Below are positions 3,937 through 24,271 of a stretch of 64,000 bases of DNA, one piece after another. A program made the position numbers and the translations under genes. Every line of letters begins with the position of its first letter. Position 1 is the stretch's first letter. Under the pieces are notes generated by a model. That model was not told the origin of the DNA. It saw nothing but the letters and a program-made list of their open reading frames with translations, and did no database searches. The DNA is from Massilia litorea (lineage in GTDB: Bacteria > Pseudomonadota > Gammaproteobacteria > Burkholderiales > Burkholderiaceae_D). Location of the stretch: positions 4,278,001 through 4,342,000 of the forward strand of contig NZ_CP062941.1 of the NCBI RefSeq assembly GCF_015101885.1, in the 5' to 3' direction.

Positions 3937-6207
3937 TTACTGCTGCGGCTTCTCGCGCGCCACCCAGTACAGCAGCAGCACGATCGCCGCATACGGTATC
4001 AGGGACAGCAGATCCGCATGCGCCCCCGCGAAGAACGGGTTCGACGACTCGGCCCACTTCGCCATCATGCTGTCGAAATTCGTCATCACCCCCGCCGTGA
4101 TCGCGATGATGATGCCCGCCAGCGCACCGCCGGCGATATAGCCGGAAGCCAGCAAGGTGCCCGAGCTGCGGTCCCCGGCAGCGGTGCGCTCTTCGTCGTT
4201 CAAGGCCGCGTACTGCGGCAGCTTGTTGTTGCGGCGGTCGGCCGCCCAGCGCACCGCGCCGCCGACCGCGATCGGCAGCGTCGACACCAGCGGCAGATAC
4301 ACGCCCACCGAAAACGCCAGCGCCTGGATGCCGGCCATTTCCAGCACCACCGAGATCATCACGCCGAACAGCACCAGGGTCCACGGCAGCTGCTGGTCGA
4401 GGATGCCCTTGATGATGTAGGACATCAGCACGGCCTTCGGCGCGTCGTATTTCTTCACTTCGGTGCCGTCCGGACGCGTGTGGTGGTGGCCGTTGATGCC
4501 CGGGTCGACCAGGTAGGCCAGTTTGCCGTCTTCGCCCACCAGGTATTTGCCTTCCGGTCCGCCGGCGGTGCCGACCTTGCGCCAGACTTTATAGGTCTTA
4601 TTGTCGCTCTCGGCCTGCGGGCCTTGCAGCTGCGCCGTCTCGGTCAGCTTCGACGCGTCGACCGTGATGCCTGGCGCAACCTGGGCGGCCGGCACGTAGA
4701 CGGTGCCGGCGTCGTTCAGCTTCAGCAGGATCGGCCCCAGGATCAGCGCCGAGGCAAAGGCGCCGCACAGGATGGCGTACTGCTGCAGGCGCGGCGTCGA
4801 GCCGACCAGGAAGCCGGTCTTCAAATCCTGCGAAGTCGTGCCGGCGTTGCTGGCCGCGATGCAGACGATGGCGCCGACCGACAGGGCGGTGACGTAATAG
4901 CGTCCGCCGGTCCAGCCCATGACCAGGAAGATCAGGCAGGTGAACAGCAGCGTGGCCACGGCCATGCCGGAAATCGGGTTCGACGAGGAGCCGACTTCGC
5001 CGGTCAGGCGCGAAGAGACGGTCGCGAACAGGAAGCCGAACACGAGGATCAGGAGTGCGCCCAGCAGGTTCATGTGCAGCGGCGTGGCGAAGGTGATGAT
5101 GGCGATGATGGCCAGGCAGCCGATCGCGACCCATTTGAACGGAATGTCCTGGTCGGTACGCAGCGAAGGATCAGCTCCGGCTGCAGCCGTCGTCTTCTTT
5201 GCGCCCATGCCCGCCAGGCCGCCCTTCAGGCCATTCCAGATCGACGGCAGCGAGCGCACCAGCGAAATCAGGCCGCCCGCAGCCACGGCGCCGGCGCCGA
5301 TGTACAGCACATAGGCGTCGCGGATGTCGTCGGGCGACATGTCCTTGATCAGCATCGTCCCGGGCGACAGCGGCACCGTCAGCAGCTCGCCGAAGAACTT
5401 GATCATCGGGATCAGCAAGAGATAGGACAGCACGCCGCCGGCCGCCATGGTAAAGGCGATGCGCGGACCGATGATGTAGCCGACGCCCACCAGCTCGGGC
5501 GAGATCTCGGCACCGGCCGAACCGGCCTTCAGCGGCGCGCCGAATTCGAAATTGGCGACATCCTTCCAGCCCTTGAACGAGACGTTGGCCACCTTGTACA
5601 GCAGGCCGAGGCCGAAGCCGCCGAAGATGATGGCAGCGCGGCGCCGGGCGTCGCGCGCGGCGTCGGACCCCGCTTCGCGCACCTCGCCCGCCGCTTCGCG
5701 CGAGGTTTCGGTGGCGGCCGCCTTCAGCACTTCGGCGCAGGCAGTGCCTTCCGGGTATTTCAGTTCACGGTGGGCGTCGACGATCATCGTGCGCCGCATC
5801 GGGATCATCATCAGGATGCCGAGAAGGCCGCCTAGCACGCCGACCAGCATGACGCGCGAGATCTCGAGGTCGAAGCCGAGGATCATAATCGCCGGCATGG
5901 TAACGCCCAGGCCGAAGGCGAGCGACTCGCCGGCCGAGCCGGCCGTCTGCGTGATGCTGTTCTCTAAAATGGTCGACTCGCGCCCGCCCATCTTCTTGAA
6001 CATGCCGAACAGGGTGATGGCGATCACCGCCACCGGAATCGAGGCGCTGACCGTCAGGCCGACTTTCAGGACCAGGTAGAGCGAGGAAGCACCGAAGATC
6101 ATGCCCAGCACGACGCCCATGACGAGGGCGCGGATGGTGAATTCGGGGAGGTTCGAGTTGGCCGGTATGTACGGCTTGACGGCGGCGGGAGCGGGATCGT
6201 AGGGCAT
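3937..6207 (-). CDS. OPT family oligopeptide transporter
   Basis: A 756-residue polytopic membrane protein of the OPT (oligopeptide transporter, YSL-related) family. It has the expected first helix block (FTIRALVMGVVLG), a GGRESTILEN loop, a QTAGSAGESLAFG segment and the family-typical KYPEGTACAEVL motif near residue 150. A soluble insertion lies around residues 525-600, and the protein ends with further helices. Length and motif order fit prokaryotic OPT proteins, which carry peptides or metal chelates by proton symport. ATG at 6207 starts MPYDP. It is transcribed alone, divergent from mrcA, and ends at the hairpin at 3911. Substrate not determinable. Confidence 0.9.
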   Translation of the reverse strand: MPYDPAPAAVKPYIPANSNLPEFTIRALVMGVVLGMIFGASSLYLVLKVGLTVSASIPVAVIAITLFGMFKKMGGRESTILENSITQTAGSAGESLAFGLGVTMPAIMILGFDLEISRVMLVGVLGGLLGILMMIPMRRTMIVDAHRELKYPEGTACAEVLKAAATETSREAAGEVREAGSDAARDARRRAAIIFGGFGLGLLYKVANVSFKGWKDVANFEFGAPLKAGSAGAEISPELVGVGYIIGPRIAFTMAAGGVLSYLLLIPMIKFFGELLTVPLSPGTMLIKDMSPDDIRDAYVLYIGAGAVAAGGLISLVRSLPSIWNGLKGGLAGMGAKKTTAAAGADPSLRTDQDIPFKWVAIGCLAIIAIITFATPLHMNLLGALLILVFGFLFATVSSRLTGEVGSSSNPISGMAVATLLFTCLIFLVMGWTGGRYYVTALSVGAIVCIAASNAGTTSQDLKTGFLVGSTPRLQQYAILCGAFASALILGPILLKLNDAGTVYVPAAQVAPGITVDASKLTETAQLQGPQAESDNKTYKVWRKVGTAGGPEGKYLVGEDGKLAYLVDPGINGHHHTRPDGTEVKKYDAPKAVLMSYIIKGILDQQLPWTLVLFGVMISVVLEMAGIQALAFSVGVYLPLVSTLPIAVGGAVRWAADRRNNKLPQYAALNDEERTAAGDRSSGTLLASGYIAGGALAGIIIAITAGVMTNFDSMMAKWAESSNPFFAGAHADLLSLIPYAAIVLLLYWVAREKPQQ

Positions 6208-6305
6208 CGTATTCCTGGGTTCTTGGGGCGCCGGGCAGTCGCAGCAGACTTAAGGCAGCCTGAAGGCGTGACTATGGCATAGCCGGAGGGCGAAAGAAAG
6301 CGGAT

Positions 6306-6311
6306 TATAAT
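6306..6311 (+). promoter_or_regulatory. Candidate -10 element for mrcA
   Basis: A perfect TATAAT lies about 50 bp upstream of the mrcA start in the 154-bp OPT/mrcA divergent gap. No good -35 hexamer is seen at 16-18 bp spacing, so this is a partial match only. Confidence 0.35.
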
Positions 6312-6361
6312 GCGCGGCCGGGCCTGCCTTTTGCGCAGGCCCACAGCAGGAGAACACTGTC

Positions 6362-8767
6362 TTGACCAAGTCCCCACGCGCACCGCGCCAGCTCCGCCGT
6401 TTTAACAAGCAAGGCGGTTTCATCTTCTTCATCCTCGCCGCCATCGTCCTCGCCGTTGCCTGCGCCGCAGTCTGGTTCCTCATGACGATCGTGCCGAACG
6501 TGCCTTCGATCGACGCCGTCACCGACTACAAGCCGAAGATCCCGCTGCGCATCTACACCGCCGACAACCAGCTGATCGGCGAATTCGGCGAGGAGCACCG
6601 CGACTTCGTCCCGATCGACCAGATCCCGCCGATGATGAAAAAGGCCGTGCTGGCCATCGAGGATGCGCGCTTTTATGAGCACAAGGGCATCGACTGGGTG
6701 GGCGCCGCGCGCGCCGTGAAGGCCAACGTGACGGGCGGCTTCGGCTCCGGCGGCGCCTCGACCATTACCATGCAGGTGGCCCGCAACTTCTTCCTGACGA
6801 AGGAAAAAGTCCTGTCGCGCAAGCTCAACGAAATCGTGCTGGCTTATAAAATCGAGGATGCGCTGACCAAGGACCAGATCCTCGAGCTGTACATGAACCA
6901 GATCTATCTCGGCCAGCGTTCCTACGGCTTCGCCAGCGCCGCGCGCAGCTATTTCGGCAAGAAGCTCGACCAGCTGACGATCGCCGAGACCGCGATGCTG
7001 GCCGGCCTGCCGCAAAACCCAGCCCGCCACAACCCGGCCGTGAACCCGAAGCGCGCCAAGCTGCGCCAGGAACAGGTGCTGCGCCGCCTGCGCGACCTCG
7101 GCGACATCGACGAGGCCCAGTACGCAAAGGCCGTCGCCGAGCCGCTGCGCGTGCATTCGAAGCCGCAGGAATTCGGCACCCATGCGCAGTACGTGGCCGA
7201 GCTGGCGCGCCAGGCCGTGTTCGCCCAGTACGCCGAAGAGTCGTACACGCGCGGCATCAAGGTGATCACGACGATCGATTCGAAAGCCCAGGAAGCGGCC
7301 TACGATTCGGTGCGGCGCAATGTGATCGCCTATGACAGCCGCCATGGCTACCGCGGCCCGGAAGCGCGCATCGAGCTGCCGGCGGATGCCGAAGAACGCG
7401 AAGACGCCATCGTCGAGGCGCTGCAGAAGCGCCCGTCCAGCGACGGCCTGGAGCCGGCCGTGGTGGTTGCCGCTTCCACGAAATCGGTGAAGGTCGAGAC
7501 CATCGACGGCGACGCCATCACGATCACGGGCGCCGGCCTGAAGTTTGCGGCAAGCGGCCTGTCCGAGAAAGCCAAAGAGGCGCAACGCATTGCGCCCGGC
7601 GCCGTGGTGCGCATCACGAAGGCCGGCAAGGCCGAATGGGGCATCACCCAGGTGCCGCTGGTGGCGGCCGCCTTCGTCGCGCTCGACGCCGACACCGGCG
7701 CCTACCAGGCCCTGGTCGGCGGCTTCGACTACAACCTGCAGAAGTTCAACCACGTGACGCAGGCCTGGCGCCAGCCGGGTTCCGCGATCAAGCCCTTCGT
7801 GTATTCGGCAGCGGTCGAAAAGGGTTATTCGCCAGGCACCCTGATCCTCGACGAGGCACTGACCATGCCTGGCGAGAACGCCGGCGCCGACTGGTCGCCG
7901 GGGAACGACGACGGCGTCTTCAGCGGTCCGATCACGATGCGCTATTCGCTGGCGCACTCCAAGAACGTGCCGACCATACGCCTGCTGCGCGCACTGGAGG
8001 TGCCCTACACCCACGACTTCCTCGGCAAGTTCGGTTTCGACCTGGCGCGCCATCCGAAGAACATGACGCTGGCGCTCGGCACCGGCGCCGTGACGCCGCT
8101 GCAGATGGCGGGTGCGTATGCGGTCTTCGCCAACGGCGGCTATGGCGTCAAGCCCTACCTGATCGCGCGCATCGAGGACGGCGACGGCAAGGTCCTGGTC
8201 GAGAACAAGCCGCCGGCCGCGCGCCAGGAAGCCGCGCGCGTGCTCGACCCACGCAATGCCTTCGTCACCGATTCCATGCTGCGCGACGTCACGCGCTACG
8301 GCACCGGCGCCGCCGCCACCAAGCGACTCGGCCGCAGCGACATCGCCGGCAAGACCGGCACCACGAGCGACGCCATCGACGGCTGGTTCGCCGGCTATGG
8401 CGGCAATATCGTGGCCGTGGCCTGGATGGGCTATGACGAACCGCGTTCGCTGGGCGGCCGCGAATTCGGCGCCACCCTGGCCCTGCCGATCTGGATCGAC
8501 TACATGCAGGTGGCGCTCGCCAAGCGGCCGGAGGCGGAGCGTCCGCAACCGGAAGGCATCATGCGCGAGAACGACGACTGGGTCTATGCGGAGTTTGCGG
8601 AGCGGCCGGAGCTGCACACGATCGACATCGATCCGGCGACCCTGAATGCACCGCAGCCCTACCTGACGGACGACGAAGAAACCGGCAGCGAGCATCCGCG
8701 CGCGGACGGTTTCGCGAAGCCGCCCGAGCCACCGGCGGCGCCGGTATTCGTGCCGGCGCAGCAGTGA
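6362..8767 (+). CDS. mrcA: Penicillin-binding protein 1A (bifunctional transglycosylase/transpeptidase)
   Basis: An 801-residue class A PBP that polymerises and cross-links peptidoglycan at the inner membrane. It has one N-terminal transmembrane anchor (residues about 20-42). The GT51 glycosyltransferase domain carries EDARFYEHKGID (catalytic Glu) and the STITMQVARN and KLNEI motifs. An OB-like insert precedes the transpeptidase domain, which has SAIK (catalytic Ser in SxxK), SKN and KTGTT. The C-terminus is Pro/Glu-rich, as in other 1A proteins. The start is a TTG at 6362 with CAGGAGAA 9 bases upstream; no better ATG exists before the transmembrane segment. The gene is monocistronic, divergent from the OPT transporter and convergent with an MFS gene. 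Confidence 0.95.
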   Translation: MTKSPRAPRQLRRFNKQGGFIFFILAAIVLAVACAAVWFLMTIVPNVPSIDAVTDYKPKIPLRIYTADNQLIGEFGEEHRDFVPIDQIPPMMKKAVLAIEDARFYEHKGIDWVGAARAVKANVTGGFGSGGASTITMQVARNFFLTKEKVLSRKLNEIVLAYKIEDALTKDQILELYMNQIYLGQRSYGFASAARSYFGKKLDQLTIAETAMLAGLPQNPARHNPAVNPKRAKLRQEQVLRRLRDLGDIDEAQYAKAVAEPLRVHSKPQEFGTHAQYVAELARQAVFAQYAEESYTRGIKVITTIDSKAQEAAYDSVRRNVIAYDSRHGYRGPEARIELPADAEEREDAIVEALQKRPSSDGLEPAVVVAASTKSVKVETIDGDAITITGAGLKFAASGLSEKAKEAQRIAPGAVVRITKAGKAEWGITQVPLVAAAFVALDADTGAYQALVGGFDYNLQKFNHVTQAWRQPGSAIKPFVYSAAVEKGYSPGTLILDEALTMPGENAGADWSPGNDDGVFSGPITMRYSLAHSKNVPTIRLLRALEVPYTHDFLGKFGFDLARHPKNMTLALGTGAVTPLQMAGAYAVFANGGYGVKPYLIARIEDGDGKVLVENKPPAARQEAARVLDPRNAFVTDSMLRDVTRYGTGAAATKRLGRSDIAGKTGTTSDAIDGWFAGYGGNIVAVAWMGYDEPRSLGGREFGATLALPIWIDYMQVALAKRPEAERPQPEGIMRENDDWVYAEFAERPELHTIDIDPATLNAPQPYLTDDEETGSEHPRADGFAKPPEPPAAPVFVPAQQ

Positions 8768-8795
8768 CAGGGCGAGCGATGCGACCGGCACTCCC

Positions 8796-8832
8796 GGCGG
8801 CCGGTCCGGGATGATCCCGGAACCGGCCGCCT
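8796..8832. terminator. Long GC-rich hairpin between convergent mrcA and MFS genes
   Basis: A 16-bp stem (GGCGGCCGGT/CCGGGA on the left arm) with one bulged A and a TGA loop sits in the 72-bp convergent gap. No T run follows on either strand, so it may slow polymerase or protect mRNA ends rather than act as a classical intrinsic terminator. Confidence 0.5.
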
Positions 8833-8839
8833 GCCGCCT

Positions 8840-10153
8840 TCATCGATTGACCAGGCTAGGCGGCTGCAACAAGGCAAGCACCGAGCCCAGCAACAACGCA
8901 GCGGACACGACGTACATGCCTGCATCCGTGCTGTTGGTCACGTCCTTCATCCAGCCGATGATCGATGGGCTGACGAAGCCGGCAAGGTTGCCGATGGAAT
9001 TGATCATGGCGATGCCGGCAGCGGCGGCCGTGCCGCCGAGAATGGCGCTCGGATAGGTCCAGAAGACCGGCATGGTGGCCAGCAGGCCGGCCGTACCGAG
9101 CGAGAGCGCGGCCATGGCCAGCGTGACGTTATTGCCGTAGATGGTGGCCAGCAGCAGGCCCAGGCCGCCCAGGGCGCTGGCGATGGTGAAGTGCCAGCGG
9201 CGCTCACGGGTGCGGTCCGCGCTTTTCGCGACCGCCAGCATCGCGACCACGGCGCAGCCGTAAGGAATGGCGGTCAGCAGGCCGACGTTGAGCGCATCCT
9301 TGACCCCGGCCGCCTTGATCAGCGTCGGCAGGTAGAAACCGACGCCATACAGGCCCATCATGCAGCAGAAATAGATCGCCGCCATCAGCCAGACACGGGG
9401 GTTGCCGAAGACGCCGGACAGCGCGTGATCCTCTTTCCCGGCGTTCTCCTTCGCGATATTGTCTTCCAGCAGCCGTTTCTCGTCGTTGCTCAGCCATGAA
9501 GCAGCGCGAATGCTGTCGGGCAGGTAGAAGAGCGTGACCACGCCGAGCAGCAGCGAGGGCACGGCTTCGACCAGGAACAGCCATTGCCAGCCCGGCATCC
9601 CGTGGAAGCCGTTCATGGAATTCAGGATCCAGCCCGACAGCGGCCCGCCCACCACGCCGGCCACCGGGATGCCGATCATGAACAGCGCATTCATGCGGCT
9701 GCGCCGCTGCGCCGGGAACCAGTAGGTCAGGTACAGCACGATGCCGGGGAAGAAGCCGGCTTCGGCCACACCCAGGAAGAAGCGCAGCACGTAGAACACG
9801 GTCGGGCTGCTCACGAAGATCATGGCGCCGGACAGGATGGCCCAGGTGATCATGATGCGGGCAATCCAGACGCGCGCCCCGACCTTGTGCATGATGATGT
9901 TGCTCGGAACTTCGAACAGGAAGTAGCCGATGAAGAAAATCCCGGCGCCAAGTCCGTACACGGTTTCACTGAACTGCAGGTCGCTCAGCATCTGCAACTT
10001 GGCGAAACCGACGTTGACGCGGTCGAGGTAAGCCGCGACGTAGGAGACGAACAGGAAGGGCAGCAGGCGCGCAGTCACCTTGGCATAGGTGGTGGTTTCC
10101 AGCTGCTCCCGCTGCGCGATGCCGGCCTCCTGCGAGAGGGTGGGTGAATCCAT
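8840..10153 (-). CDS. MFS transporter, anion:cation symporter (ACS)-like
   Basis: A 437-residue major facilitator with about 12 hydrophobic helices. It has the ACS-subfamily look: YLDRVNVGFAKL after the first helix, GYFLFEVPSN in helix 2, a GVAEAGFFPG motif in helix 4 and YWFPAQRRSRMNA after it. Relatives carry organic anions such as phthalate, 4-hydroxyphenylacetate, tartrate or glucarate. I chose ATG at 10153 (MDSPTLSQ), which has an AGCGAGG site upstream. The reading frame is open far beyond, but that part overlaps the next MFS gene in another frame. The gene lies 164 bp downstream of the pcl-linked MFS gene on the same strand, so it may be transcribed with it. An aromatic acid substrate is plausible but unproven. 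Confidence 0.85.
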   Translation of the reverse strand: MDSPTLSQEAGIAQREQLETTTYAKVTARLLPFLFVSYVAAYLDRVNVGFAKLQMLSDLQFSETVYGLGAGIFFIGYFLFEVPSNIIMHKVGARVWIARIMITWAILSGAMIFVSSPTVFYVLRFFLGVAEAGFFPGIVLYLTYWFPAQRRSRMNALFMIGIPVAGVVGGPLSGWILNSMNGFHGMPGWQWLFLVEAVPSLLLGVVTLFYLPDSIRAASWLSNDEKRLLEDNIAKENAGKEDHALSGVFGNPRVWLMAAIYFCCMMGLYGVGFYLPTLIKAAGVKDALNVGLLTAIPYGCAVVAMLAVAKSADRTRERRWHFTIASALGGLGLLLATIYGNNVTLAMAALSLGTAGLLATMPVFWTYPSAILGGTAAAAGIAMINSIGNLAGFVSPSIIGWMKDVTNSTDAGMYVVSAALLLGSVLALLQPPSLVNR

Positions 10154-10317: not shown

Positions 10318-11592
10318 TCACGGTGTCGCGGGCGGCATCTTCGCAGTACTGCGCTTCCGGATTTCCCGGTTGACCTGGTTCACCAGGAAGGCGCCGGCAA
10401 TCGTCGTCGCCACCAGCACCCACCCTACCCTGTTGAATCCGTGCAGCCTGCCATCCGCCCCGATACTGACGAGATGCCCGGCAATCACGGCCGCGACGCC
10501 ACCCGACAACTGCTGGATGGACGCGCTGATCGCATTGAAGGAACCGCGCATCCGCGGTTCGGGCACCGAGGCGGACATCGCCTGGTAGGGAATCATGCGT
10601 GCGAAAATTCCGAGGAACATCGTGACGTTGACCAGGACCAGTACCGGCAGGGACACGCGCCCCAGGTTCGTGTACACCAGCACCATCGCGATGCTTAACC
10701 CGCTGCCGGCCAGGAAGACCGGCATCCGTCCGACCGCATCGACCATTTTCCCGACCAGGGGCGCGGTCAGGATGGTGCACAGGCCGGTCAGCAGGTAAAT
10801 GGTCGGCAAGTCCGTGCTGGCCAGGCCGACATTGTTGACGATGAATACGCTGCTGAAGGGCATGATCATGAAGCCGCCCGTCGTCAGCAGGACGGTGGTG
10901 GCAAACGCAGGCAGATGACGCCGCGACACGATCGTGTCGACCAGATGCCGGACCGGATGGACCTCGTGCGCACCGTCCAGATGGGCCGTGACCGGCTTCA
11001 GGCGCCACCCGACGAGCAGTCCTCCCAGCGCGCCCAGTCCGACCAGCAGAAAGAACGGCGCATGCCAGTCCCAGCGGGTGGACGCCAGCAGCGCCAGCGG
11101 CAGGCCCAGCACCTGGCTGGCGGAGAACGCCGTCTGGATGATCCCCATGACCCGCCCGCGCAGCGCAGGCGCGAACAGGTCGGTTGCGATGGCCAGCACC
11201 ACCGAGCCGATCACGCCGCCGAACAATCCCGTCACGATACGCGCCAGCAGCAGGGACGGAAAGGTTTGGGCCAGGCCGCACCACAGGGTCCCTGCGAGAA
11301 AGCCGACATAAAAGAACAACAGCAATTTTTTGCGATCGAAGCGGTCGGCGAATCCGGCCGCCAGCAAGCCGCTCAGGCCGGCGCTGAACGCATAGGCCGA
11401 GACGATCATGCCGAAGCGCGCCGGCGTGATAGCGAGTGCGGGAATGATCAGCGCGCCAAGCGGCGCCATGACCATGAAGTCGAGGATCACCGCGAATTGC
11501 AGGAAGGCGAGCAGGCCCGCCACCAGCTTCTGGTAGCCGCTGAACTTGCCGGCGGTGGCCGGCTCGATTGTCGTTTTCGGTGCGTCGGGCAT
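10318..11592 (-). CDS. MFS transporter (DHA1-like) in an operon with the pcl-type ligase
   Basis: A 424-residue 12-helix major facilitator. The motif-A loop after helix 2 reads GFADRFDRKK and helix 4 has RIVTGLFGG, as in the DHA1 drug:proton antiporter group. Members of this group export, and some import, small organic molecules. It starts at ATG 11592 with a GAAAGGAAT site, only 10 bp after the stop of the upstream ligase gene, so the two are almost certainly co-transcribed. Its placement directly behind the p-coumarate ligase gene of a PYP locus suggests a role with p-coumarate or a related phenolic (inference). The direction of transport cannot be decided. Confidence 0.85.
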   Translation of the reverse strand: MPDAPKTTIEPATAGKFSGYQKLVAGLLAFLQFAVILDFMVMAPLGALIIPALAITPARFGMIVSAYAFSAGLSGLLAAGFADRFDRKKLLLFFYVGFLAGTLWCGLAQTFPSLLLARIVTGLFGGVIGSVVLAIATDLFAPALRGRVMGIIQTAFSASQVLGLPLALLASTRWDWHAPFFLLVGLGALGGLLVGWRLKPVTAHLDGAHEVHPVRHLVDTIVSRRHLPAFATTVLLTTGGFMIMPFSSVFIVNNVGLASTDLPTIYLLTGLCTILTAPLVGKMVDAVGRMPVFLAGSGLSIAMVLVYTNLGRVSLPVLVLVNVTMFLGIFARMIPYQAMSASVPEPRMRGSFNAISASIQQLSGGVAAVIAGHLVSIGADGRLHGFNRVGWVLVATTIAGAFLVNQVNREIRKRSTAKMPPATP

Positions 11593-11602
11593 GGTATTCC
11601 TT

Positions 11603-12814
11603 TCAGTTCCAGGCGTCGATGATCCAGTCCGCCGCCTTGCCGCCCGGTCCGCGCGGCAAGGCGGGGCCGAAGGAAAACGCGGCCGGCCGCTCGGGCGGGC
11701 TCAAGCGTTCGGCGATCCAGCCGTCCAGTTCCTGGCGCAGTGCCGCCGTCGCGACGCCCTCGCCCGCCACCACGAAGGCTTTCAGGCGGGCGCCCTCGTC
11801 CGGACGCATCGGGCGCACGACGCATTCGCGCACGTCCGGATGCAGCGCCAGCACCTCGGCCACATAGGCTGGATACACGTTCGTGCCCCCGACCTGCACC
11901 GCCTGGTCGATGCGCCCGTCCGGCACGAAGCGCTCGGCGTCGATCCACTCGAGCCGGTCCTGCAGCGGAAAACCCTGGTCCCCGCGTTCGATCGTATTCT
12001 CCTGCGCACCCCGGCGCCAGTACGGGAGCAAGCGATACGGCGCACCGGCCTCCTCCCTCCACCCGACGCCCGCCGTCTCCGAACTGCCGTAGACCTGCAG
12101 CAGGCGCATCCCGGTTGCGGCAAGCGTGCGTGCCGTCGCATCCGCACACGGCGCGCCGGAACTGACGCCGGCCACGTCGCCGGGAAAGCCCGGCGCCAGC
12201 GCCGCCACCTGGTGCCAGAAGTCGGGATGCGCCACCACCAGGTCCCCCGGCGCCAGCTGCGCGGCCAGGGCCGCCGGCGAGGAAGCGCGCAGGTCGAGCA
12301 CCGGCAGCGGCGCCGCCCCATCCTGCGGCAGCAACACGGTGAACAGGAAACCGTAGATATGATGGGCCGGCACGGCCGCCAGCACGCGGCGCCGGCCGGG
12401 CAGCAGGCGCGCCAGTTCGTCGACTTCGCGCCACAAGTCCGCGAGCGTATGCGCACAGCGCTTCGGCGCGCCCGAGCTGCCCGAGGTGCGGAAGGTCAGC
12501 ACGCCGTCCTCGCGCGCCAGGCTGGCCCGGGCACAGGCGATCCAGTCGGCCAGCCCGGTCTGCGCCAGCAAGGCGTCCTCCATGCCGGCGCGCGCAAATC
12601 CCAGCAGGTCGGCCAGGCTGGTCGCGGCGCCCATCAGGTCGAGCGAATCGGCGCCGAGATCGGCCACCAGGTCGAGGCCGGGAGGCCAGGAGGACGGGAC
12701 AGGAAGCGGCCGTCCGGGCCGCGCGGCCGCCAGTTCCGCCGCGACGAGGTCGCGCACGAGGCGGGCGAGTGCGGGTTCGTGCCGCCACCAGCGTGTCTTT
12801 ACAGGCGCTTGCAT
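11603..12814 (-). CDS. pcl: p-Coumarate:CoA ligase of the PYP-activation type (AMP-forming, ANL superfamily)
   Basis: A 403-residue adenylate-forming ligase, shorter than plant-type 4CL (about 540). This is the compact size of the 4-coumarate:CoA ligases that make the p-coumaryl thioester used to load photoactive yellow protein. Visible motifs are the P-loop TSGSSGAPK (about residue 132), PAHHIYGFLFTVLLP, YGSSETAGVG and the C-terminal GRIDQAVQVGGTNVYP. The first 90 residues contain ADLGADSLDLM, which resembles an acyl-carrier phosphopantetheine site. ATG at 12814 was chosen over an upstream in-frame start at 12922 because the extension has no conserved look. The gene is divergent from pyp across 182 bp and is followed at 10 bp by an MFS gene. 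Context and length make the assignment strong; substrate specificity is inferred. Confidence 0.82.
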   Translation of the reverse strand: MQAPVKTRWWRHEPALARLVRDLVAAELAAARPGRPLPVPSSWPPGLDLVADLGADSLDLMGAATSLADLLGFARAGMEDALLAQTGLADWIACARASLAREDGVLTFRTSGSSGAPKRCAHTLADLWREVDELARLLPGRRRVLAAVPAHHIYGFLFTVLLPQDGAAPLPVLDLRASSPAALAAQLAPGDLVVAHPDFWHQVAALAPGFPGDVAGVSSGAPCADATARTLAATGMRLLQVYGSSETAGVGWREEAGAPYRLLPYWRRGAQENTIERGDQGFPLQDRLEWIDAERFVPDGRIDQAVQVGGTNVYPAYVAEVLALHPDVRECVVRPMRPDEGARLKAFVVAGEGVATAALRQELDGWIAERLSPPERPAAFSFGPALPRGPGGKAADWIIDAWN

Positions 12815-12845
12815 TTGCTTCTTTCGCGACAGTTCGGGGCTGGCG

Positions 12846-12874
12846 ATGGTGCAGCGGGCCGCCTTTTCTGTCAA
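12846..12874 (-). promoter_or_regulatory. Candidate sigma-70 promoter for the pcl operon
   Basis: On the minus strand a perfect TTGACA is followed after 17 bases by CACCAT. The predicted start of transcription is about 25 bases before the pcl ATG. The -10 is poor, with only three matches to consensus, so an activator may be needed. It mirrors the pyp promoter at 12902. Confidence 0.45.
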
Positions 12875-12901
12875 CATCGTGACCGCAAGCGCCCTGCACG
12901 A

Positions 12902-12930
12902 TTGACACCCGCGCTCGTGCATGCCAACAT
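12902..12930 (+). promoter_or_regulatory. Candidate sigma-70 promoter for the pyp operon
   Basis: A perfect TTGACA (12902-12907) is followed after exactly 17 bases by CAACAT (12925-12930). The predicted transcript would start near 12937 and have a leader of about 60 bases before the pyp ATG. The -10 shares the CAnCAT form with the divergent pcl promoter. Confidence 0.5.
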
Positions 12931-12945
12931 TTGTTTCTCAAAATC

Positions 12946-12977
12946 AATTCGCAAATTCGTCAATTCACCAATTCGGC
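12946..12977 (+). repeat. Four 8-bp direct repeats (AATTCNNN) in the pyp leader
   Basis: AATTC recurs at 12946, 12954, 12962 and 12970, an exact 8-bp period, in an otherwise GC-rich context. The array lies between the predicted pyp promoter and its GGAG ribosome-binding site (12985-12988), so most of it would be in the mRNA leader. Function unknown. Confidence 0.6.
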
Positions 12978-12996
12978 CATCCGGCGGAGATCCAAC

Positions 12997-13383
12997 ATGA
13001 CCAGTGCACCCCCCACCTTCGACACGCGCGGCCTGGCCGACATCCTCGACGCCAGCAGCCAGGAACAGCTCGACACGCTCGACTTCGGCGTGATCGGCTT
13101 CGACGCCGACGCCAGGGTCCAGCGCTACAACGCCTTCGAATCGCAGGCCGCCGGGCTGTCGCCGCAGCGCGTGATCGGCGAGCCGCTGTTCACCAACGTC
13201 GCGCCCTGCCTGAACAACTTCATGGTGGCCCAGCGTTTCGAAGACGCCGCCTTCGACGCGGCCGAACTCGACGACACGATCGACTACGTGCTGACCCTGC
13301 GCATGCGTCCGATCAAGGTCAAGCTGCGCCTGCTGGCCAGCGCCGCCAGCGGCACCCGCTACGTGCTGGTCCAGCGCCGGTGA
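12997..13383 (+). CDS. pyp: Photoactive yellow protein (PAS-fold blue-light photoreceptor)
   Basis: A 128-residue protein that aligns end to end with Halorhodospira halophila PYP (125 residues), recalled from memory. It shares FGVI, RYNAFE, VIGEPLF, NVAPC and RPIKVK. The residue that binds p-coumaric acid through a thioester (Cys69 in H. halophila) is Cys71 here, within VAPC. Tyr42, Glu46 and Met100 correspond to Tyr44, Glu48 and Met103, so the chromophore hydrogen-bond pair and the re-isomerisation methionine are kept. Thr50 and Arg52 are replaced by Ala52 and Leu54, which should alter the pocket lid and perhaps colour or kinetics. ATG at 12997 follows GGAG at 8 bp. The stop overlaps the start of a GGDEF gene, and pcl is divergent, which supports a functional photoreceptor. 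The protein is cytoplasmic. Confidence 0.92.
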   Translation: MTSAPPTFDTRGLADILDASSQEQLDTLDFGVIGFDADARVQRYNAFESQAAGLSPQRVIGEPLFTNVAPCLNNFMVAQRFEDAAFDAAELDDTIDYVLTLRMRPIKVKLRLLASAASGTRYVLVQRR

Positions 13384-14747
13384 TCGACTTCTCCAACGAC
13401 GTGGACGCGAACGCGGAAAGCCTGCGCGCCGAGCACGAAGCCCTGATGCAGTTCCTGTACCTGGCCCCGGTCGGCCTGGTACAAGCCGGCATCGACGGCG
13501 AGATCGTGATGATCAACCCGATCTCGGCCCAGCTCCTGATGCCGCTGTCGCCGGACGGCAGCCTGACGAACCTGTTCACCGCGCTGGAAAGCGTGGCGCC
13601 CGACCTGCGCCTCCAGTGCGCCCAATACCCGAAAGCCAACGGCATGGTCTTCGAAGGCGAGCACATCCACCTGCGCGCCGACGACAGCATCCGCGGCACG
13701 CCGCAGATCCTGTCGCTGACCCTGCTGAAACTGGACGCCGCGCGCGTCATGGCCGTGATCCAGGACGTGACGGCCGAAGTGCGGCGCGAACGCCAGCTGC
13801 GCCAGAGCGACGCCTGGCTCAACGCCATCCTGACCCGCATCAGCGACTACGCCCTGGCCGCGGTCGATCGCGCGGGCCGCCTGTGCGACTGGAACGAGAG
13901 CATCGCGCGCGTCACCGGTTTCGGCGAGCACATCGTCGGCTCGCCCTATTCCATCTTCTATCCGCCCGACGCGATGACCGGCGAGCACCTGCTCGACCGC
14001 CTGCGCGAGGCCGACACCAACGGCTGGAGCATGGACGAAGGCCTGCGCCTGCGCGCCGACGGCAGCCAGTTCTGGTGCAGCGCGCTGATCGCGCCCTTGC
14101 CGGACCGCGAAGCCTTCGGCGACGATCCGGCCGCACCGCGCTACTGCCTGATCCTGCGCGACATCAGCGACAAGCGCGCCGCCACCGAGAAGCGGCGCCA
14201 GGCCGCCTTCTGCGACCATCTGACCTCGCTGGCGAACCGGCGCGCCTTTTTCGAAGCCGCCGAGCTCGAACTCGACCGCGCGGCCCACACCCCGCGTTCG
14301 CTGGCCCTGATCGTGTTCGACGCCGACCACTTCAAGCACATCAACGACCGCTACGGCCACCCGGCCGGCGACCGCGTGCTGTGCGACCTGGCCAACGTCC
14401 TGCGCGACACCTTCCGCGCGGTCGACACGGTGGCGCGCCTGGGCGGCGAGGAATTCGCCGTGCTGCTGCCCTCGACCGGCATCGAGCAGGCGCTGGCCGG
14501 CGCCGAGCGCCTGCGCGCGCTGGTGGCGACCCGCCTGGTCGCGGCCGACGGCGCCGAGATCGCCTACACCGTCAGCGCGGGCGTGGCGATCCTGGACGGC
14601 ACGGCTGGCGGCATCGACCTCCTGATCAAGCGCGCCGACGAGGCGCTTTACCAGGCCAAGGCGCAGGGACGCAACCGCGTCGCGCCCTGGACTCCCGAAC
14701 TGACTCTTCATGAAAACACTCCACAGCGAAGCCGCAATGCGGATTGA
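13380..14747 (+). CDS. PAS-PAS-GGDEF diguanylate cyclase, translationally coupled to pyp
   Basis: A 455-residue predicted soluble cyclase that makes c-di-GMP from two GTP. PAS 1 spans about residues 20-135, PAS 2 about 145-270 (ending in a LRDISDKR linker) and GGDEF about 280-435. The active site is GGEEF (355-359), the metal-binding FDAD motif is intact, and an RxxD product-inhibition site (RAVD, 346-349) stands five residues before it. The start is GTG at 13380; its last two bases are the first two of the pyp TGA stop, the classic overlap for coupled translation. No better start exists downstream in the PAS domain. The first PAS resembles the N-terminal PAS of the next gene closely, so both may take the same partner or signal, plausibly PYP (inference). 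Confidence 0.9.
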   Translation: MIDFSNDVDANAESLRAEHEALMQFLYLAPVGLVQAGIDGEIVMINPISAQLLMPLSPDGSLTNLFTALESVAPDLRLQCAQYPKANGMVFEGEHIHLRADDSIRGTPQILSLTLLKLDAARVMAVIQDVTAEVRRERQLRQSDAWLNAILTRISDYALAAVDRAGRLCDWNESIARVTGFGEHIVGSPYSIFYPPDAMTGEHLLDRLREADTNGWSMDEGLRLRADGSQFWCSALIAPLPDREAFGDDPAAPRYCLILRDISDKRAATEKRRQAAFCDHLTSLANRRAFFEAAELELDRAAHTPRSLALIVFDADHFKHINDRYGHPAGDRVLCDLANVLRDTFRAVDTVARLGGEEFAVLLPSTGIEQALAGAERLRALVATRLVAADGAEIAYTVSAGVAILDGTAGGIDLLIKRADEALYQAKAQGRNRVAPWTPELTLHENTPQRSRNAD

Positions 14748-16521
14748 GCAGATCGACGCCTACGAGGCCCTGGTGCAGTTCCTGTACCGGGCCCCGATCG
14801 GCCTCGTGCAGACGGGGCTCGATGGCGCTGTCGAGATGCTCAATCCGATGGCCTCGAACCTGCTGATGCCGCTCGCCCGCGACGGCGGACTGGATAACCT
14901 GTTCGCGACCCTGGAAGCGGTTGCACCTCAGCTGAAACAGCTGGCGGACGCCTTCGACCAGCCTTCGGGCGTGGTCTGCGAGGCGCTGCGCGTGCCGCTC
15001 GGCGACGACCACAGCGCGCCCGGCGCGCCGCAGGTGCTGTCGATCAGCCTGTTGAAACTCGATCCGGAACGCCTGATGGCGGCGCTCACCGACGCCACCC
15101 TGGAGATGCAGCGCGAGCAGGAAAACCTGCGCCGGCGCCTGCGCAGCGCGGCGCGCACCGACGCCCTGACCCGGCTGCCGAACCGCGCCGCGGCGCGCGA
15201 GCAGCTGCAAGGCCTGCTCGACCGCGGGGCGAGCGCGGACCGCTTTGCGCTGCTGTTCCTCAATTGCGACCGCTTCCGCCAGATCAACGACACCCTCGGC
15301 CAGAGCGCGGGCGACCGCCTGCTCACCTCCATTGGCGACCGCCTGCTGGCGGCGCTGGCCGACCGCATGCGTGCCGGCGGCCTGCCCGCGAACGGCCGGG
15401 TCGACCCGGCCGCGGGCGGGACCGGCCTGGTGGCGCGCGTCGGCGGCGACGAATTCGTGGTGCTGCTGGACGGCCTGCGCCATCCGGACGAAGCCGAGCG
15501 CCTGGCCCTGCGCCTGCTCGACACGCTGGCGCGGCCGCACCAGGTCGACGGCCATGAAGTGGCCTGCCGGGCGAGCATCGGTTTGTTCTGGGGCGGTGAG
15601 CCTGGCAAGGACGGCGAGATCGCCGGCGACGCCGACGCGGCGATCGGCGACGCCAGCATCGCCATGATCGAGGCCAAGCGCGCCGGCGGTGCGCGCCACG
15701 TGATGTTCGAGGCGGCCATGCGCGAGCGCGCCGCGCGCCGCGCCGACATCGAGGCGCAGCTGCGCACGGCGCTGGCGGAAGAACAGCTGTTCGTCATGTA
15801 CCAGCCGGTGGTCGGCCTGAATCCCGACGGCTCGACCGACCACTCGGCCGGCGTCGAGGCCCTGGTGCGCTGGCAGCATCCGACGCGCGGTCTGGTGCCG
15901 CCCTTCGATTTCATCGGCGTGGCCGAGGAATGCGGGCTGATCGACCAGATCGGCGACTTCGTGCTGGAACGCTCCTGCGTCGACTTCATGCGCTGGCGCG
16001 CGCAGCTGGGCGGGGCCGCGCCGCGCCTGATGGCCGTGAACCTGTCGCGCGCCCAGCTGGCCCAGCCCGACTGGACGGCGAAAGTGGCGAACGTGCTGGC
16101 CCGCACCGGCATGCCGCCCGAGAGCCTGCAGCTCGAAGTCACCGAAAGCCTGGCCGCCCAGGACGAGCAGATCCAGGTGCGCCTGCACGAACTGAAAAGC
16201 CTCGGCATCAAGCTGGCGCTGGACGATTTTGGCACCGGCTATTCCTCGCTGTCGAGCCTGCACCTGTTGCCGGTCGACACCGTCAAGATCGACCGCTCCT
16301 TCGTCTGCAAGGCCGATACCAGCCATCACCACCGGGTGCTGATCGAAGCCACGGTCAAGGTCGCGCAGAGCCTGGGCATGAACACGGTGGCCGAAGGCAT
16401 CGAAACGGCCGCCCAGCTCGACGCCGTGCGCGCCCAGCTCTGCGCCAAGGGCCAGGGCTATCTGTTCAGCCGGCCGCTGGTGTCGAATGCGCTGGTGGAG
16501 TGGATCGGCGCAAATCGCTGA
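14710..16521 (+). CDS. PAS-GGDEF-EAL protein of the pyp operon, probably c-di-GMP phosphodiesterase
   Basis: A 603-residue protein with an N-terminal PAS (about 15-135) paralogous to PAS 1 of the preceding gene, a GGDEF domain (145-335) and an EAL domain (345-600). GGDEF is canonical (245-249), but the first Asp of the metal-binding DxD is Asn (LNCDRF, Asn185), and there is no RxxD inhibition site. The EAL domain keeps its catalytic set: EAL (383-385), an Asn in VNLSR, Glu in LEVTE, DDFGTGYSS, VKID and AEGIE. Net hydrolysis of c-di-GMP is therefore more likely than synthesis. It overlaps the upstream gene by 38 bp if ATG 14710 is used; ATG 14737 (11-bp overlap) is an alternative, and neither has a strong ribosome-binding site. 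It is the last gene of the pyp operon. Confidence 0.9.
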   Translation: MKTLHSEAAMRIEQIDAYEALVQFLYRAPIGLVQTGLDGAVEMLNPMASNLLMPLARDGGLDNLFATLEAVAPQLKQLADAFDQPSGVVCEALRVPLGDDHSAPGAPQVLSISLLKLDPERLMAALTDATLEMQREQENLRRRLRSAARTDALTRLPNRAAAREQLQGLLDRGASADRFALLFLNCDRFRQINDTLGQSAGDRLLTSIGDRLLAALADRMRAGGLPANGRVDPAAGGTGLVARVGGDEFVVLLDGLRHPDEAERLALRLLDTLARPHQVDGHEVACRASIGLFWGGEPGKDGEIAGDADAAIGDASIAMIEAKRAGGARHVMFEAAMRERAARRADIEAQLRTALAEEQLFVMYQPVVGLNPDGSTDHSAGVEALVRWQHPTRGLVPPFDFIGVAEECGLIDQIGDFVLERSCVDFMRWRAQLGGAAPRLMAVNLSRAQLAQPDWTAKVANVLARTGMPPESLQLEVTESLAAQDEQIQVRLHELKSLGIKLALDDFGTGYSSLSSLHLLPVDTVKIDRSFVCKADTSHHHRVLIEATVKVAQSLGMNTVAEGIETAAQLDAVRAQLCAKGQGYLFSRPLVSNALVEWIGANR

Positions 16522-17234: not shown

Positions 17235-17876
17235 CTACCCCAGCAAGCCATGCTCGATCGCATAGCGGGTCAGCTCGGCGTTACTTTTCATTCCCATTTT
17301 GTCGAGCACCCGCGCACGGTAGGTGGTCACCGTACTCGGGCTCAGGTGCAGCTGCCCGGCGATCCTGACCAGGCTCTCGCCTTCCGCGAGCCGCTTCAGC
17401 ACCTCGAGTTCGCGGTCGGACAGCAGCGCGTGTGATCCCAGCCGGTCGCCGCCGAGCATGCCGGCAAACCGTTCCATCGTCTCCGGCGTCAGGTATCTGC
17501 CGCCGGCAGCTGCTTTGCGGACCGCGGCAACGATGACGTCGGTGCTGCTGTTCTTGTTCAGGTATCCGGCCGCGCCCTGCCTGAAGGCGCGCAGCGCGTA
17601 GGTTTCCTCGGGATAGGCCGTCAGCACGACGGCCGCGGTTTCCGGCTTCAGCGTCCGCAAGCGCTTGATGAGATCCAGTCCGCTTTTGTCGGGCAAGTTG
17701 ATGTCCACGAGAACGACATCGACGTCGTGCTCGTTCGCGAACTGCAACGCGTCCTGTGCCGTCTCCGCTTCGCCGACCACTTCGATGTCGTCGGCCGTTC
17801 CCAACATCAGGCGTATGCCGTTACGCACGACGCGATGATCGTCCACCAACAAAATGCTGATCCTGTCAGTGCTCAT
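17235..17876 (-). CDS. NarL/FixJ-family response regulator
   Basis: A 213-residue regulator. The receiver domain (about 7-120) has the acidic pair in LLVDDH, the phosphoacceptor Asp in VLVDINLPDKSG, a Thr in VLTAY and Lys in YLNKNSS. The C-terminal LuxR-type helix-turn-helix (about 148-205) reads LSDRELEVLKRLAEG followed by SPSTVTTYRARVLDKMG. ATG at 17876 has GGGAGGGG upstream. A GTG six codons earlier overlaps that site and is less likely. It is the last gene of an operon with a REC-GGDEF protein (50-bp gap) and a large hybrid kinase, so it is probably a transcriptional output of that phosphorelay. Targets unknown. Confidence 0.9.
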   Translation of the reverse strand: MSTDRISILLVDDHRVVRNGIRLMLGTADDIEVVGEAETAQDALQFANEHDVDVVLVDINLPDKSGLDLIKRLRTLKPETAAVVLTAYPEETYALRAFRQGAAGYLNKNSSTDVIVAAVRKAAAGGRYLTPETMERFAGMLGGDRLGSHALLSDRELEVLKRLAEGESLVRIAGQLHLSPSTVTTYRARVLDKMGMKSNAELTRYAIEHGLLG

Positions 17877-17926
17877 CCGTTTCACCCCTCCCACACCCAG
17901 CTGCTCCCCGCATCATTCCGCCCACA

Positions 17927-18813
17927 TCACTCCCCGGCCAGCTCGATCCGGTTGCGCCCGCCCGCCTTGGCGCGATACAGCGCCGCGTCGGCCAGCTGCA
18001 GCAGGCCGCTGCAGGACATGCCCTGGCCGGGGCCGGCGGCGGCGACGCCGATGCTGAGCGAACTCGGAATCGCGCCGAACCCGGTCTGTACCGGTTGCGC
18101 GGCCACCGCCGAGCGTACCCGTTCGGCGACCTCCATCGCACCGGCGGCATCGCAGGCCGGCAGCACGATCAGCAGCTCCTCGCCGCCATAGCGCCCAAGG
18201 GAATCATAGGGCCGCAGGACGCCGCCCACGCGCCGGGTCACTTCGCGCAGCACCGCGTCGCCGGCCAGGTGGCCATACACGTCGTTGGTGCGCTTGAAAT
18301 GGTCGAGGTCGCCGAAAATGACCGCCACCGGCTGGTGCTCACGGCCCAGGCGCACCAGCTCCTTTTCGAGGATATCGATGACCGCGCCGCGATTGTAGAT
18401 GCCGGTCAGCGCATCATGGCTCGCCTTGAGCCGTAATTGCTGTTCCAGTTCGCTGATCCGGCGCCCGGCCCGTATCCGCACCTGCAACTCCTCGACGTTG
18501 AAGGGCTTGCCGATGAAATCGTCGGCGCCGGCGTTCATTGCCTCCACCACGAACTCGGTTTCGCTGCGCGAGGTCAGCATGATCAGGTAGACATAGCGGT
18601 CCTTCACGCGGCTGCGGATCAGCCGGCACACGTCGATGCCGTCCATGCCCGGCATCATCCAGTCGATGATGGCCAACATCGGCGCGTCCGGCTCCTGCAG
18701 CCGGTCGCAGGCGCTCTGGCCGTCGGCGACGGTCTCGACCTCGTAGCCCCAGTCTTCCAGCGTGTCCTGCAAATACAGCAGCGAGAGCCGGTCGTCGTCT
18801 GCGATTAATACTT

Positions 18814-18817
<4 letters not shown>
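17927..18817 (-). CDS. Response regulator with GGDEF output (WspR/PleD-like diguanylate cyclase)
   Basis: A 296-residue protein. The receiver domain (2-120) has ADDDR, the phosphoacceptor Asp in IIDWMMPGMDG and Lys in GKPFN. A short coiled linker (EQQLRLKA) leads to a GGDEF domain (about 130-293). The active site is GGEEL, a tolerated variant of GGEEF. The metal motif GDLDHF is intact, and an RxxD inhibition site (RPYD) lies five residues upstream. It should make c-di-GMP when phosphorylated. Its start overlaps the stop of the hybrid kinase gene by four bases (ATGA), so the two are translationally coupled and very likely a cognate pair. Confidence 0.92.
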
Positions 18818-23910
<5,093 letters not shown>

Positions 23911-24271
23911 GGAGTGTACGTTTGAAATCAGGTTGGCGTGACCGACCACCGGCGCCCATCCTGAAAGGCGTGCACAGGCAGTCGGTCCACAGCGCGGAAA
24001 ACACTTGCCGCGGATGATGAAGAAGGGACAGCCGTCGGTAAAGACGTCCCGCATTTTGCCCCAGCGGCCAACAAAAAGATAGCCGCAGGGCAATTTTGTA
24101 ATATTTTATTCGCAGGCTTTGTAACCATTGGTGGAATGCCGGCACCGGCCCCGCACCGGCTGTCACCCCCGACCCGGCAGCATGTGCTGCGGAACAGGGA
24201 CCGAAAGTAGCACCCGTTTGTTGCGGTGCAACAACGGCTGCGTCCCGCCCGATGCAATGCGGTGCGCGCCG
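23911..24271. other. 361-bp intergenic region upstream of the hybrid kinase operon
   Basis: No gene is seen. It holds an A/T-rich patch around 24090-24125, the likely promoter area for the kinase operon. A hairpin lies at 24214-24237 (10-bp stem with one bulge, GGT loop), about 55 bp before the end of kinase-proximal non-coding DNA and just past the GAF-EAL stop. No T run follows, so termination is uncertain. Confidence 0.5.

Follow-up and report, generated by a model that had tools for sequence, protein, structure and literature searches.

To which protein does a free photoactive yellow protein (PYP) report that it has absorbed light? The relay of a signal from free PYP is stated to be unknown in one survey (PMC9664959), just as the partner of the H. 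halophila PYP is elsewhere stated to be unidentified (PMC13250908), and the question is posed sharply by a locus of Massilia litorea in which a pyp gene heads an overlapping operon with two genes for enzymes of cyclic di-GMP (c-di-GMP) turnover. The locus lies in a 64-kb stretch of the host genome (5.35 Mb, two contigs), and this whole stretch, as analysed, is called the window below. The two enzymes share one cryptic N-terminal PAS-fold domain, here termed nPAS, which in the genome samples searched hardly occurs outside genomes with this clade of PYP, a near-obligate association. The functional coupling of PYP with the nPAS enzymes is strongly supported, and we give slightly better than an even chance to the reading of the locus as a c-di-GMP switch under blue-light control, PYP acting on the two enzymes alike by way of their nPAS domains.

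The operon and its domains are located in the window as follows.

12997 to 13383, plus strand: pyp, a single-domain photoactive yellow protein of 128 amino acids; Cys71 codon at 13207-13209.
13380 to 14747, plus strand: nPAS-PAS-GGDEF gene (cyclase, D position), 455 amino acids, GTG start.
13410 to 13823, plus strand: nPAS copy D, residues 11-148 of the cyclase; cryptic PAS fold.
13800 to 14195, plus strand: second PAS of the cyclase, visible to Pfam (match within residues 158-264); approximate bounds.
14205 to 14678, plus strand: GGDEF domain of the cyclase, from the domain scan.
14710 to 16521, plus strand: nPAS-GGDEF-EAL gene (predicted phosphodiesterase, E position), 603 amino acids.
14731 to 15120, plus strand: nPAS copy E, the N-terminus of the nPAS-GGDEF-EAL protein.
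15754 to 16476, plus strand: EAL domain, from the domain scan.

The stop codon of pyp (TGA, 13381-13383) overlaps the cyclase gene by four nucleotides at the latter's GTG start (13380), and the cyclase gene in turn overlaps the nPAS-GGDEF-EAL gene by 38 nucleotides, or by 11 if translation of the latter begins from the ATG at 14737. The original prediction, made from the letters of the window, had described such an overlapping operon of pyp, PAS-PAS-GGDEF and PAS-GGDEF-EAL genes, and it was also right to place a first PAS domain in the cyclase, where Pfam sees none and a PAS fold is predicted. Missing from it was the most informative feature of the locus, namely that one N-terminal PAS-fold domain, following PYP, is common to both enzymes. 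Of 42 nPAS copies, not one was recognised by a Pfam PAS family (E <= 0.1) or by an NCBIfam PAS model, and a single copy gave a weak match (E 0.0076) to HK_VicK, a sensor kinase model. The idea that nPAS is a degenerate PYP found no support in a profile comparison, where 41 columns aligned with an hhalign probability of 1.9% (E 0.026); the second PAS of the cyclase does match PYP in such a comparison (95%). A search with the nPAS region of the cyclase returned 943 proteins at E <= 1e-8, of which the best 120 were listed, and nPAS was not found in viral contigs, giving no sign of viral spread. As a separate observation, position 81 of the nPAS alignment (window 13650-13652) is a cysteine in 69 of 76 rows and a phenylalanine in the window's cyclase copy; this cysteine could be ligand-binding or redox-active. 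Residues common to the D, E and kinase copies of nPAS include Phe25, Tyr27, Pro30 and Asn46 (numbering of nPAS-D).

The association with PYP was followed in samples of the host's family (294 genomes), order (399) and class (369), which are even draws rather than complete surveys. PYP matches occurred in 59 of the 294 family genomes, including 24 of the 27 from the host's own genus, and nPAS occurred in 60: all 59 PYP-positive genomes and one of the 235 PYP-negative ones (Fisher P ~1e-61, kinship being ignored), with 13 of 44 genera positive in each search. Within the order sample, close PYPs (113 bits or more) and nPAS were found in the same 11 of 399 genomes, six of which already belonged to the family sample; a twelfth PYP genome, G780, has distant PYPs only (<=47 bits) and no nPAS. 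The class sample yielded nPAS in a single genome of 369, that of the host, with two copies, both in the pyp operon. The host genome contains 92 PAS matches, yet nPAS is confined to these two.

The same linkage is seen at the level of gene order. Together with the window, 74 fetched stretches covered 77 of the 78 family PYP matches, the one left out (G086:C832) being a fragment at a contig end. At every one of the 62 close-type loci (the window and 61 others) an nPAS effector lies directly downstream of pyp on the same strand, with nPAS starting <=69 nucleotides after the PYP domain, so that the gene neighbourhood anticipated by the original prediction is indeed conserved. Searching with nPAS only, and keeping the best 80 of 160 stretches (which partly repeat the family sample), we found pyp directly upstream, <=72 nucleotides away, in 80 of 80; these best 80 include Massilia, Duganella, Janthinobacterium, Noviherbaspirillum, Methyloversatilis and Rubrivivax. 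Departures from strict linkage also occur. One genus (G015, G055, G078, G097) carries an nPAS-GGDEF-EAL gene outside the pyp operon, and L114 has an extra nPAS cyclase that lacks an intact pyp and is preceded by a pyp remnant of 31 amino acids at 71% identity. In an 88-tip tree all 68 tips that are nPAS-linked PYPs group together in a single clade (support 0.82; the L210 fragment, at 46 bits, was left out). In the nPAS tree the E copies form one clade (support 0.95) and the kinase copies another (support 0.85), the sole misfit in the E clade being a fragment from a broken gene, L211, which bears a D label in the tree though it stands before the EAL part and was counted as E in the residue comparison.

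What, then, does nPAS deliver a signal to? The window's cyclase gene product matches the GGDEF domain at E 1e-44 and has a GGEEF motif with a RAVD site of the product-inhibition type, and the nPAS-GGDEF-EAL product has a GGDEF domain with its motif present and an EAL domain (E 3e-68) with intact motifs, no RxxD site being found in it by pattern. The two are predicted to be a diguanylate cyclase and a phosphodiesterase, respectively. Among the 62 close-type loci, 45 have separate cyclase- and phosphodiesterase-type genes, 13 have the cyclase type alone, and the remaining four divide into two with the phosphodiesterase type alone (L078, L089) and two with fusions (L063, L064). Cyclase-position genes retain GG[DE]EF and RxxD in 51 of 58 cases; in the other seven the motif is degenerate (L040, L057, L068), the domain is lost (L045, L053) or the gene is interrupted (L071, L092, excluded from the GGDEF losses). 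All 49 E genes keep the EAL motif and 48 of 49 keep each of DDFGTG, EGIE and QGY, while the GGDEF motif of the E proteins deviates from GG[DE]EF in 11 of 49 and no RxxD was seen at its usual place in any of the 49 by a pattern that also requires a near-intact GGDEF motif.

The outputs are also swapped. Four PYP loci (L204, L206, L207, L208) carry nPAS on histidine kinases (HisKA-HATPase_c), all in order genomes outside the family and among the 11 noted above, and three distinct loci (L063 = L148, L064 = L141, and L164) encode fused nPAS-PAS-nPAS-GGDEF-EAL proteins in which the first GGDEF is lost and both nPAS copies are retained. Across loci either enzyme may be lost or decayed; the constant companion of PYP is nPAS. 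At L045 (= L196), L053 (= L150) and L146, the cyclase-position protein has lost its GGDEF domain and shrunk to nPAS-PAS, while the adjoining nPAS-GGDEF-EAL gene is intact; this remnant is possibly a trans-acting adaptor.

The sensor itself is recognisably a PYP. Its best sequence relatives in the PDB are PYPs, led by the Ppr PYP domain (1mzu, E 3.7e-16), and it aligns with the H. halophila PYP at E ~1e-14 (query 10-127 on 8-124). Rows for TAL effectors in the same search were discounted, being weak (E 7.7e-5 or worse) and lacking any passing stretch. The match to NCBIfam TIGR02373 (80.6 bits, E 9.9e-23) does not reach the curated cut-off of 143; the TIGRFAM seed is reported to comprise only four PYPs (PMC9664959). 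The operon's pyp is the sole PYP match of the host genome. As originally predicted, Cys71, Tyr44, Glu48 and Met103 of this 128-residue protein align with C69, Y42, E46 and M100 in H. halophila numbering, and the equivalents of Cys69, Tyr42 and Glu46 are present in every one of the 62 close-type PYPs, that of Met100 being retained in 60. Elsewhere the pocket is altered: the window's equivalents of T50, R52, F96, Y98 and W119 are Ala, Leu, Leu, Leu and Tyr, and across the 62, T50 is Ala in 57 and Ser in 5, with R52 and F96 each Leu in 61.

In the family sample, 15 genomes with the nPAS-linked type also contain a second type of PYP, whose pocket is canonical (T50, R52, F96 and W119 in 15 of 15). 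At second-type loci fetched on their own (L094-L106), a ligase adjoins directly downstream in 13 of 13 and nPAS was found in none of the 13; at L073 and L075 a second-type pyp neighbours a close-type pyp. Different again is L212 (G780), where four neighbouring PYP-like genes (5639-9452) are arranged pairwise about a CoA ligase, without nPAS; two of the four proteins are much extended at the C-terminus, and both extensions finish with a common GADI-x-IRFDD motif.

Upstream of pyp, the interval of the original prediction holds two further genes.

11603 to 12814, minus strand: p-coumarate:CoA-ligase-type gene (PYP-activation type), divergent from pyp; alternative starts at 12877 or 12922.
10318 to 11592, minus strand: major facilitator superfamily (MFS) transporter gene, the first gene of that interval.

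The ligase had been read as a divergent CoA ligase of the PYP-activation type, and TIGR02372 is by far its best family (316 bits, the curated cut-off of 334.7 not being reached). The p-coumarate could be supplied in trans, since two aromatic ammonia-lyase genes, candidates for its source, lie elsewhere in the host genome. One of them adjoins a putative urocanase gene, and the neighbourhood of the other (L003) resembles an aryl-polyene cluster.

From these observations a course of events can be proposed, the ligase, Cys71-loading and photoisomerisation steps of which draw on surveys (PMC9664959, PMC12826048) and general knowledge. The ligase would activate p-coumarate to p-coumaroyl-CoA, the activated p-coumarate would be attached to Cys71 of PYP, and blue light would isomerise the chromophore and alter the fold or shape of the protein. 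In one of its states, PYP would then transiently bind, in trans, the nPAS of both enzymes, and one sensor would jointly set c-di-GMP synthesis and breakdown through nPAS in a push-pull fashion, in whichever direction the switch may run, with a presumable effect on biofilm or motility. Evolution would have attached nPAS, as a receptor module dedicated to PYP, to GGDEF, GGDEF-EAL and histidine-kinase outputs. Because nPAS occurs almost only in PYP genomes and begins both enzymes, it is a good candidate for the PYP receptor, and we put at an even chance that it is a dedicated receptor passing the light state of free PYP to a cyclase, a phosphodiesterase or a histidine kinase. The operon is real and conserved and probably functions in blue-light/c-di-GMP signalling, and PYP and nPAS may bind each other directly.

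Several results weigh against the switch. G072 keeps an orphan nPAS cyclase with no trace of pyp nearby. Not every operon has the push-pull pair, since 13 of the 62 lack a phosphodiesterase-type nPAS gene, though L054 and L066, within these 13, have a GGDEF-EAL gene without nPAS. The ligase lies within 4 kb of just 25 of the 62 close pyps, two of these 25 loci (L073, L075) being those that adjoin a second-type pyp. Tree-distance correlations over 43 loci are 0.78 and 0.86 for PYP-nPAS versus 0.87 for PYP-EAL and 0.67 and 0.88 for PYP-GGDEF, and with correlations among all domains of 0.67-0.90 the PYP-nPAS pair is not singled out. A model of a fused PYP-nPAS, with the stop read as Ser, over 15 loci gave a predicted template-modelling score (pTM) of 0.48, that is, no confident domain orientation, and this score weighs little either way, the construct being artificial. 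Finally, no natural PYP-nPAS fusion covering both halves was seen among the 120 of 924 matches listed; the four top matches, all of them long and containing both GGDEF and EAL domains, are tentatively taken to be two-nPAS proteins. As evidence against direct binding, the model score, the absent natural fusion and the tree distances are each weak.

The alternative that survives best is that PYP signals via another protein, with nPAS sensing a ligand or redox state or merely pairing the two enzymes, all within one light response; we hold this to be possible, if rather unlikely. The D and E copies of nPAS are paralogues that could form a D-E pair, and pairing would suit both the three distinct loci where an nPAS-PAS protein without GGDEF persists beside an intact nPAS-GGDEF-EAL gene and the three that encode the two-nPAS fusion. 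The lack of a fixed interface in the PYP-nPAS model also favours this alternative. Against it, the co-occurrence of nPAS and close PYP in genomes is nearly absolute, histidine-kinase outputs included, and it holds in the genus whose four genomes carry an nPAS-GGDEF-EAL gene outside the operon.

A second alternative holds that the genes hitch-hike as a cassette, a compact operon being passed on as a block with no direct signalling from PYP to the enzymes. The genes are tightly linked and the distance trees of all domains correlate, and since the PYP-nPAS distance correlation is not singled out, joint inheritance of a cassette could account for the co-occurrence. Arguing for function instead are the three kinds of output that accompany a single PYP clade, the unlinked nPAS-GGDEF-EAL gene retained in one PYP-positive genus and the pyp remnant (L114) before an otherwise orphan nPAS cyclase, and we consider this alternative improbable. 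Less probable still is that PYP has ceased to sense light (T50A, R52L, F96L, Y98L, W119Y) and serves the enzymes as a redox or ligand sensor, for although the pocket is altered in nearly all 62 close PYPs and canonical in the 15 second-type PYPs, and the ligase is often not adjacent, the equivalents of Tyr42, Glu46 and Cys69 never vary, Met100 is lost in only two, and a PYP-type ligase adjoins pyp in the window.

How much of the switch is new? The original prediction regarded a stand-alone PYP with a cyclase/phosphodiesterase pair as an uncharacterised system, which was too strong a claim of novelty, since two surveys report PYP beside GGDEF/EAL genes and the arrangement in the window is already known as a kind. 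Xing, Gumerov and Zhulin (2022, PMC9664959) describe uncharacterised clade C PYPs, especially of Burkholderiales, as single-domain proteins adjoining GGDEF and EAL genes, with Phe96 and Trp119 lost and Met100 kept, and propose a role in biofilm. The window's PYP fits these traits of residues, order and gene neighbourhood, clade C membership being assigned by traits and not from a rebuilt clade tree; nPAS, its co-occurrence with PYP and nPAS histidine kinases were not found described in the parts of that survey covered. Dohmen et al. (2025, PMC12826048) likewise report stand-alone pyp with c-di-GMP genes, and propose blue-light, c-di-GMP control of biofilm; of 113 pyp operons they count 29 with GGDEF and 22 with EAL genes. 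Theirs is a census by gene class, and no companion domain was found described in the parts covered. Both surveys cite the Idiomarina loihiensis PYP (van der Horst et al. 2009) as acting on biofilm: it is also stand-alone with a GGDEF neighbour, and light is reported to lower biofilm, but it belongs to clade A. Ppd, the PYP-phytochrome-GGDEF/EAL fusion of Thermochromatium tepidum, also joins PYP to c-di-GMP domains (PMC12826048, PMC9664959), but as one polypeptide with a phytochrome, whereas in the window pyp and the GGDEF/EAL genes are separate and no phytochrome domain was found in the six operon-region proteins scanned. No description of nPAS as a PYP companion domain was found in searches of open-access PubMed Central papers on PYP, and an earlier mention elsewhere is possible. 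The new element is the nPAS coupling domain common to both enzymes; the operon type is already published.

The original interval, 10318 to 16521, was correctly taken as a PYP locus insofar as it holds pyp, the ligase and the enzyme genes, and it starts at 10318 because it also includes the MFS gene, which had gone unmentioned. Neither this gene nor the next MFS gene had a match above 60 bits near pyp in the fetched stretches of relatives (~7 kb per side, less at contig ends), MFS matches outside the window being weak (43.5 bits at most). Close to the operon on its other side is a second signalling cluster (17235-24093, minus strand). By eye, its open reading frames appear to encode, in order on that strand, a hybrid sensor kinase of great length with multiple PAS domains (18814-24093), a receiver-GGDEF protein (17927-18817) and a LuxR/NarL-type regulator (17235-17894).

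For a protein that is among the best-studied photoreceptors, nPAS supplies a concrete candidate partner. Should nPAS prove to be a dedicated PYP receptor, one light sensor would drive two opposed c-di-GMP enzymes, and nPAS would represent a previously undescribed PAS-fold family that reads the light state of free, single-domain PYP. Such a domain could also serve optogenetics as a modular light input that works in trans.

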